Of a stretch of 34,549 nucleotides of DNA, positions 14,067 through 15,087 are shown piece after piece. The translations under genes were made by a program, and so were the position numbers. The stretch covers positions 1 through 34,549 of the forward strand of contig CAMAWM010000023.1 in assembly GCA_945861965.1 (NCBI GenBank), given 5' to 3'. This DNA is from Chitinophaga pinensis. Lineage in GTDB: Bacteria > Bacteroidota > Bacteroidia > UKL13-3. The notes under the pieces are model-generated. The model was not told the origin of the DNA and made no database searches. It saw nothing but the letters and a program-made list of their open reading frames with translations. The stretch's first letter is position 1. The number at the start of each line of letters is the position of its first letter.

Positions 14067-14163
14067 ATGGATAAGATTAAGTATCTCTCAAAAAGAGTAG
14101 TCCAGAAAACTCTATAAAAAACGGGGCGAAATCCGAAAGGCCACATGAGTAGGAAACATTAAA
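14067..14163 (+). promoter_or_regulatory. Structured leader with alternative hairpins and short upstream frames
   Basis: The leader of the membrane-protein gene contains CTCT (14085-14088), AGAG (14094-14097) and CTCT (14110-14113). The central AGAG can pair with either neighbour, giving two mutually exclusive hairpins. A second GAGTAG copy at 14147-14152 repeats 14095-14100. Another hairpin, CGGG/TCCG, is at 14122-14135. Two short ATG frames are present: 16 codons at 14067-14117, overlapping the switching hairpins, and 5 codons at 14145-14162. The layout suggests attenuation or a ligand-binding RNA, but I cannot match it to a named class. Confidence 0.4.
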
Positions 14164-14174
14164 AACTAATTAAT

Positions 14175-14987
14175 ATGAAACAAATTTTTTGTCAAATCCT
14201 TGATTTTCCACAAATGGTGAATCAAAAAGTATTGGATGCAAAACTGAACTCAACAGTTAACGCTTTTGATTCTCAAGACGGAATTCGAAGCTATGTTAAG
14301 TTGATTTATCAGGTAGCCGCCTTAGTATTTTTTCTCACATGGGAGTGGGGAGTTATTAATGCTGCTATGGCTTATTTAAGCAATCCTGATGTAGCAGGCA
14401 TGGGAAAAGTTGGAAGTATTGTTACATTTATTTTGTTAGCGTACTCAGCATTGCCAATTTCTCAAGTAATCAGATCAAGAGGTGAAAGTCTTGGTGGTGC
14501 TCACAACGGAATGGTTGAATTTATCTTTAAAGATTTTGTTACTACCAACATTAAAATTGTTGGAGAAACAATGGCAATTGCCGGATTCATTTATGCACTT
14601 AATTTAACAATTGGATTCGTTTTAGATGCTGACTTGCTTTTAGCATATTCTAGCGACTCGGTTTTAAATATGATAGGAGGTATGTACACATTTCCTATTA
14701 ATATGATTTCTGAGTTGTTGGTTTTAATAAGACTCGATTTTCTTGCTAGCATATTGCATTCATTTACTGATCTTAAATTAAATGCAAGCGCATCGTTTGG
14801 TGGTGATTTTATTTGGAGCGCAAGCGATTTGATGGCAGTAGCAGGTGCATACATCAATGTAATTCTTGGCCTTGCAGTACTTTATGTTAACTTAGCAATT
14901 TACGGCTATTTATACTCGTTAGTTGCAGCTTTGGTTAACTTTGTTCCTAGATTAGCGATTCCTATTTCGTTAAAAAATCGCAGCTAA
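14175..14987 (+). CDS. Multi-pass inner-membrane protein of unknown function
   Basis: A 270-residue protein that I do not recognise. A soluble ~40-residue N-terminus (KQIFCQILDFPQMVNQKV) precedes about five or six hydrophobic spans: roughly residues 45-68 (VKLIYQVAALVFFLTWEWGV), 80-98, 130-155, 165-195 and 215-260. A GESLGGAHNGMVEF loop and a KDFVTTNIKIVGE segment between spans look conserved or functional. No transporter signature, metal motif or signal peptidase site is evident. It is a single gene with a long structured leader and a strong factor-independent terminator immediately after it, suggesting a well-expressed, separately regulated unit. Confidence 0.75.
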   Translation: MKQIFCQILDFPQMVNQKVLDAKLNSTVNAFDSQDGIRSYVKLIYQVAALVFFLTWEWGVINAAMAYLSNPDVAGMGKVGSIVTFILLAYSALPISQVIRSRGESLGGAHNGMVEFIFKDFVTTNIKIVGETMAIAGFIYALNLTIGFVLDADLLLAYSSDSVLNMIGGMYTFPINMISELLVLIRLDFLASILHSFTDLKLNASASFGGDFIWSASDLMAVAGAYINVILGLAVLYVNLAIYGYLYSLVAALVNFVPRLAIPISLKNRS

Positions 14988-15004: not shown

Positions 15005-15038
15005 AAAAAACCCCGCTGAGTTTTCAGTGGGGTTTTTT
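15005..15038 (+). terminator. Bidirectional rho-independent terminator
   Basis: An A6CCCC arm pairs with a GGGGT6 arm. The 14-bp stem, with one G-T pair, has a short loop at about 15019-15024. It lies 18 bases after the membrane-protein stop, and the T6 on either strand lets it also end the leftward kynurenine monooxygenase transcript. Confidence 0.88.
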
Positions 15039-15087
15039 ATTGTTAAACCAAAAAAATTTGACGGCTGAATAGTTTACTTAAAATTTT

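Follow-up and report, generated by a model that had tools for sequence, protein, structure and literature searches.

What is the leader that stands before a gene for a 270-residue protein in the window studied here, a stretch of 34,549 nucleotides from Chitinophaga pinensis? The original prediction, made from the letters of this one stretch, saw an undescribed control device in which CTCT, AGAG and CTCT segments form two mutually exclusive hairpins. It proposed a riboswitch, an attenuator or a leader peptide as the mode of control. The fold of the leader taken alone does not help, since it is no better than that of shuffled sequences (z = +0.41; of 200 shuffles, 127 fold as well or better) and so is indistinguishable from chance in a single sequence. 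About 175 relatives of the leader were compared in all. The comparison points to a portable element that controls protein synthesis.

The leader belongs to a catalogued family

The leader belongs to RF03081, the DUF805 RNA, and is not an undescribed element. It matches the full Rfam model, scoring 70.5 bits where the gathering cut-off is 51.1 (E = 3e-11, computed over the whole window), and no other Rfam family exceeds its threshold in the window. The letters of the window can form both consensus hairpins of the family, and these helices covary family-wide. The motif lies on the same strand as a coding gene, 15 nt before its ATG, and the orthologues keep this placement. The prediction of a structured leader was therefore right, but its novelty was not: the prediction itself had named an Rfam match as the result that would count against it, and there is one. 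Rfam lists RF03081 as cis-regulatory and places it in clan CL00115. Our literature search found no paper on the function of RF03081 and none tying the name "DUF805" to an RNA. One copy was found in the 2.1-Mb genome from which the window comes.

In its sequence, its two hairpins and its cis position upstream of a coding gene the window leader is like the rest of the family. It differs in the gene that follows, which encodes an unclassified membrane protein rather than the DUF805 protein that gave the family its name. The model does not require such a protein, and DUF805 proteins make up a small minority of RF03081 targets. The features of the locus are collected in Table 1.

Table 1. Features of the RF03081 leader and of the gene it precedes, in window positions
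Feature	Position	Strand	Basis
RF03081 (DUF805 RNA), whole motif	14090..14159	+	cmscan, 70.5 bits, model 1-68 of 68
Hairpin P1, GAGT 14095-14098 with ACTC 14109-14112	14095..14112	+	covariation at all four pairs
Pseudoknot PK-B, P1 loop CC 14102-14103 with GG 14123-14124	14102..14124	+	weak in discovery set, supported in hold-out
Hairpin P2, GGC 14125-14127 with GCC 14140-14142	14125..14142	+	covariation
Pseudoknot PK-A, P2 loop UCC 14132-14134 with tail GGA 14152-14154	14132..14154	+	covariation, confirmed in hold-out
Conserved tail GAGUAGGA	14147..14154	+	near-invariant columns
Gene led by RF03081, 270-aa membrane protein of no known family	14175..14987	+	ORF
Terminator-like hairpin AAAACCCCGCTGA-GTTT-TCAGTGGGGTTTTTT closing the unit	15007..15040	+	read from sequence

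The protein contains several hydrophobic stretches, as membrane proteins typically do. It was predicted to belong to no recognised family, and indeed neither Pfam nor NCBIfam returns a match even at E<=10. An AlphaFold model (pLDDT 46.5) is too poor to use for identification. We also considered a family uniting it with the RF03081-led protein of locus L014, and rejected this because the resemblance is confined to 38 C-terminal residues. Relatives in other Bacteroidota assemblies are 48-71% identical over the whole length, and at 10 of the 12 loci that carry a relative the same RNA stands about 15 nt before the start codon. RF03081 is absent from L043, the most distant full-length relative, which tells us that the gene can do without it, and from L044, where the protein match is confined to its end. 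The strong terminator predicted behind the gene is there as a hairpin plus T-run that we read from the sequence; a pattern scan did not list it.

Two hairpins and two pseudoknots

Rfam's own structure line for the family contains two hairpins only. We add two pseudoknots to it, and the case for them rests on two sets of sequences. The discovery set, about 130 RF03081 sequences mostly from other Bacteroidia, was located with a model of the two Rfam hairpins only. Its 129 distinct sequences were aligned with MAFFT without any structure, and the alignment was scanned for covarying columns. P1 supplies four of the eight strongest pairs, P2 two and PK-A two; the PK-A pairs are stacked and complementary and join CC of the P2 loop to GG of the tail (in the window, 14133-14134 with 14152-14153). 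A pair of PK-B, which joins CC of the P1 loop to the GG before P2, ranked tenth. When the null was pooled from every pair of columns, the pseudoknot pairs came out with E near or above 1, and so did most pairs of P1 and P2. A null this coarse does not clearly set apart even helices that are already established, and we replaced it with a per-pair null in which each column's substitutions are redistributed on a tree. Under this null the PK-A pairs, with 10 and 4 double compensatory events, have p(both measures) <1/1500, and the PK-B pairs have p of about 0.003.

The hold-out set was fetched only after the pseudoknot hypothesis had been fixed. Its 46 sequences come from 40 loci in further genomes, and other classes of the phylum contributed about half of these loci. 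The model used to align them contains P1 and P2 and leaves out the pseudoknots, so the fit is not biased toward them. PK-A is 98.9% paired in these sequences, with 12 exchanges of C-G for U-A at one pair. For PK-B the figure is 94.3%, and each of its two pairs shows exchanges on both sides. Taken together the four pseudoknot pairs beat 500 of 500 shuffles in percentage paired, in doubly changed cells and in covariation score, and they beat every slid version as well. In the tree null p(both) is <1/2000 for every one of these pairs but one, which is invariant.

These patterns of covariation show a predicted fold of two consecutive hairpins, the loop of each pairing with a GG just downstream of it, that is, two small pseudoknots in a row. 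Rfam prints neither with its model, and in that sense both are new, though they may have been described before. The helices are short, with two to four pairs each and just two in PK-B, and many positions outside them hardly vary across the phylum. The two units do not appear to come from a direct tandem duplication, an origin we rejected because their similarity is no better than that of shuffles (p = 0.45).

Several details of the original prediction can be set against this fold. The repeated GAGTAG is present, at 14095 and 14147. A GC-rich hairpin had been proposed at 14122-14135, and its letters, CGGGGCGAAATCCG, are there. Its CGG/CCG helix nevertheless has no covariation in the discovery set, has none in the hold-out set either and is only 80-93% paired there, and its G and C bases have other partners in the refined fold.

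Position and target genes

The distance from the RNA to the start codon is nearly fixed. The end of the motif lies a median of 15 nt before the ATG at 127 loci, mostly 11-21 nt, and 7-25 nt before it at 45 of the 46 hold-out loci; from GAGTA to ATG the median is 27 nt. No terminator fits in so short a space, which excludes control by transcription termination and with it the proposed transcription attenuator. On the other side of the motif, TAnnTTTG-like promoter elements peak just before it (16 observed against 2.4 expected in the bin from -5). This peak suggests that RF03081 is probably near the 5' end of the transcript, with a clear promoter element in a minority of loci only. Other stretches recur here too. 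One like GGGCTGACCACCCAATGTGACA stands shortly before RF03081 at L012, L013, L022, L047, L050, L053, L061, L064 and L070, and other loci share TTTGATAGTTCTTGA or CTTGACAGT-N7-ACTGACAAG; these are possibly shared promoter or regulator sites.

The genes behind the motif have little in common. The 127 downstream proteins fall into 77 clusters, 60 of them singletons. Their Pfam matches include rhodopsin, aquaporin, DUF805, TM2, vWA, TerB, aegerolysin, phosphatidylserine decarboxylase, scramblase, AHSA1, DUF1842 and outer-membrane barrels. Some species have several copies of RF03081 per genome. Bacteriorhodopsin-like genes are led by RF03081 in three genomes (L069 501-565, L105 2501-2569 and L106 2501-2570), and aquaporin genes are led by it at L123, L176, L202 and L204.

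Cassettes and probable transfer between phyla

Some RF03081 copies in other genomes resemble the cargo of integron cassettes, in that they follow inverted repeats, about 130 nt long, whose last letters are GTTATGGGC. One such locus is L060 (1-2300), where three successive RF03081-led genes are separated by imperfect repeats of this kind that start with CCATAAC or CGCTAAC. Similar attC-like cassettes occur in L087, L091, L101, L113 and L171, with many of their genes led by RF03081. In 39 genomes a search for CGTTATGGGCAAGTTTA returned 41 sites, and the reversed control returned 7. Among 41 distinct sites in the sequences analysed, 22 have an RF03081 core within 300 nt downstream, and many are preceded by an inverted repeat that clearly surpasses those of shuffles. 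The share of 22 may be biased, since the genomes were picked for RF03081. At L060 900-967, and in similar lower-scoring cassette copies, positions that are otherwise invariant have changed, such as GATAGGA for GAGTAGGA; these copies are perhaps decaying elements.

The likeness to integrons has limits. The boxes of these sites depart from the GTTRRRY of integron attC, and no integrase in the 39 genomes scores above the TIGR02249 cut-off. The window copy has no such repeat before it, and with no CGTTATGGGCAAGTTTA site in its genome we do not count it as part of an integron-type cassette. A plasmid search with a cassette leader gave no match. Very few integrons have been reported in Bacteroidetes (IntegronFinder 2.0, PMC9024848). 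Two tyrosine recombinases, at L135 3282-4325 (347 aa) and L136 3405-5048 (547 aa), match TIGR02249 in two pieces and below the cut-off. The L135 recombinase is followed, about 1 kb downstream and in the same orientation, by an attC-like site and an RF03081 gene, and it is a candidate for the integrase of the cassettes.

RF03081 also occurs outside the Bacteroidota. Conjugative plasmid pNK6d of Bradyrhizobium diazoefficiens carries a copy (L219 1914-1982) about 18 nt before a small gene, with an SD-like GGAG between motif and ATG. Relatives of this small gene are led by RF03081 on contigs from a viral collection with 54-57% G+C, and the 89-residue protein that follows RF03081 at the Bacteroidota locus L102 resembles its product. 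This suggests that RNA and gene were transferred together across phyla.

What the RNA is likely to do

We believe that RF03081 acts in cis on the initiation of translation. In the window the tail GG of PK-A sits 22-23 nt before the AUG, and because of this position the formation or melting of PK-A would alter the loading of the 30S subunit on the A-rich start region. With less certainty we take RF03081 to work like a riboswitch, as RNA alone, and to sense a general cellular signal. The generality of the signal is argued from the diversity of the genes. Three observations favor an RNA-only sensor over an operator for a dedicated repressor: unrelated targets, a single copy here and a fold kept across phyla. 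That RF03081 is a riboswitch is possible. For the whole of this reading, translational control together with the sensing of a general signal, we would put the chances at about even. A broader version makes it a portable double-pseudoknot translation switch that answers a general signal, serves unrelated accessory genes and spreads by integron-like cassettes and transfer between phyla; this we offer tentatively, as something that could well be wrong.

Other explanations must be weighed against the same observations. The pseudoknots might form a constitutive 5' module that protects the end of the mRNA or serves as a ribosome standby or enhancer with no signal involved. The unrelated genes, the near-fixed spacing to the ATG and the portability on cassettes would all suit such a module, as would the probable place of the motif at the start of the transcript in some loci. 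Yet the near-invariant unpaired positions exceed what a clamp needs, and simple hairpins would suffice for one, so we consider the module rather unlikely, though still a serious rival. A conserved RNA-binding or ribosomal protein could instead bind the motif and block or aid initiation. Conserved loop and tail letters beside short helices speak for this, as do the many targets per genome in some species. The protein would have to be a widely conserved one, however, given one copy in the genome of the window and one on an alphaproteobacterial plasmid, and in our judgment this operator, too, is a serious rival but an improbable one.

The two remaining explanations fare much worse. If the conserved stretch were a promoter or regulator-binding site acting as DNA, the promoter-like elements and lineage-specific conserved stretches directly upstream would be expected company. 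Compensatory changes in four interleaved helices would not, and the near-fixed spacing is to the ATG and not to the promoter, so that we see very little chance of it. Least credible of all is the model of the original prediction, in which CTCT/AGAG hairpins exclude each other and control is by a leader peptide or a transcription attenuator. Its segments do exist (CTCT at 14085 and 14110, AGAG at 14094), and one of the proposed pairings is real, GAGT with ACTC being helix P1. But the CTCT at 14085, which the alternative hairpin needs, is not conserved in the orthologues, and this removes the mutually exclusive pair. The short upstream frame of 16 codons is likewise present, at 14067-14117 (16 aa), and likewise not conserved: the orthologues carry different short frames or none, two having no short frame at all, and leader-peptide control falls with it. 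Add to this the lack of a terminator between motif and ATG and a single-sequence fold not above chance, and almost nothing is left of the switch as drawn. The general idea of a control device at the level of RNA or translation holds up better. The leader is a conserved cis-regulatory element before a single-gene unit, most likely acting on translation; attenuation and the leader peptide are what has to be given up.

Comparison with known riboswitches

Riboswitches for c-di-GMP (GEMM) occur in several copies per genome before functionally unrelated genes. RF03081 is like them by analogy only, in having multiple copies ahead of unrelated genes; the two have no common sequence or architecture, and there is no Rfam match to GEMM. 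The closer comparison is with the small H-type pseudoknot riboswitches that act on translation through loop-to-tail pairing, such as SAM-II and the preQ1 type. SAM-V is reported to be another H-type pseudoknot acting on translation (PMC6061858). RF03081 shares with these the compact pairing of loop to tail close to the start codon. It differs from them in having two units in a row, another sequence and no SD inside the motif.

Significance

The mechanism of RF03081 is now approachable, since the fold is specific enough to test, its distance from the start codon is nearly fixed and its unrelated targets are listed. If the sensing of a general signal proves true, RF03081 would be a common layer of post-transcriptional control in the Bacteroidota. 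Its presence in attC-like cassettes would show that horizontally moved genes can bring the control of their own expression with them.
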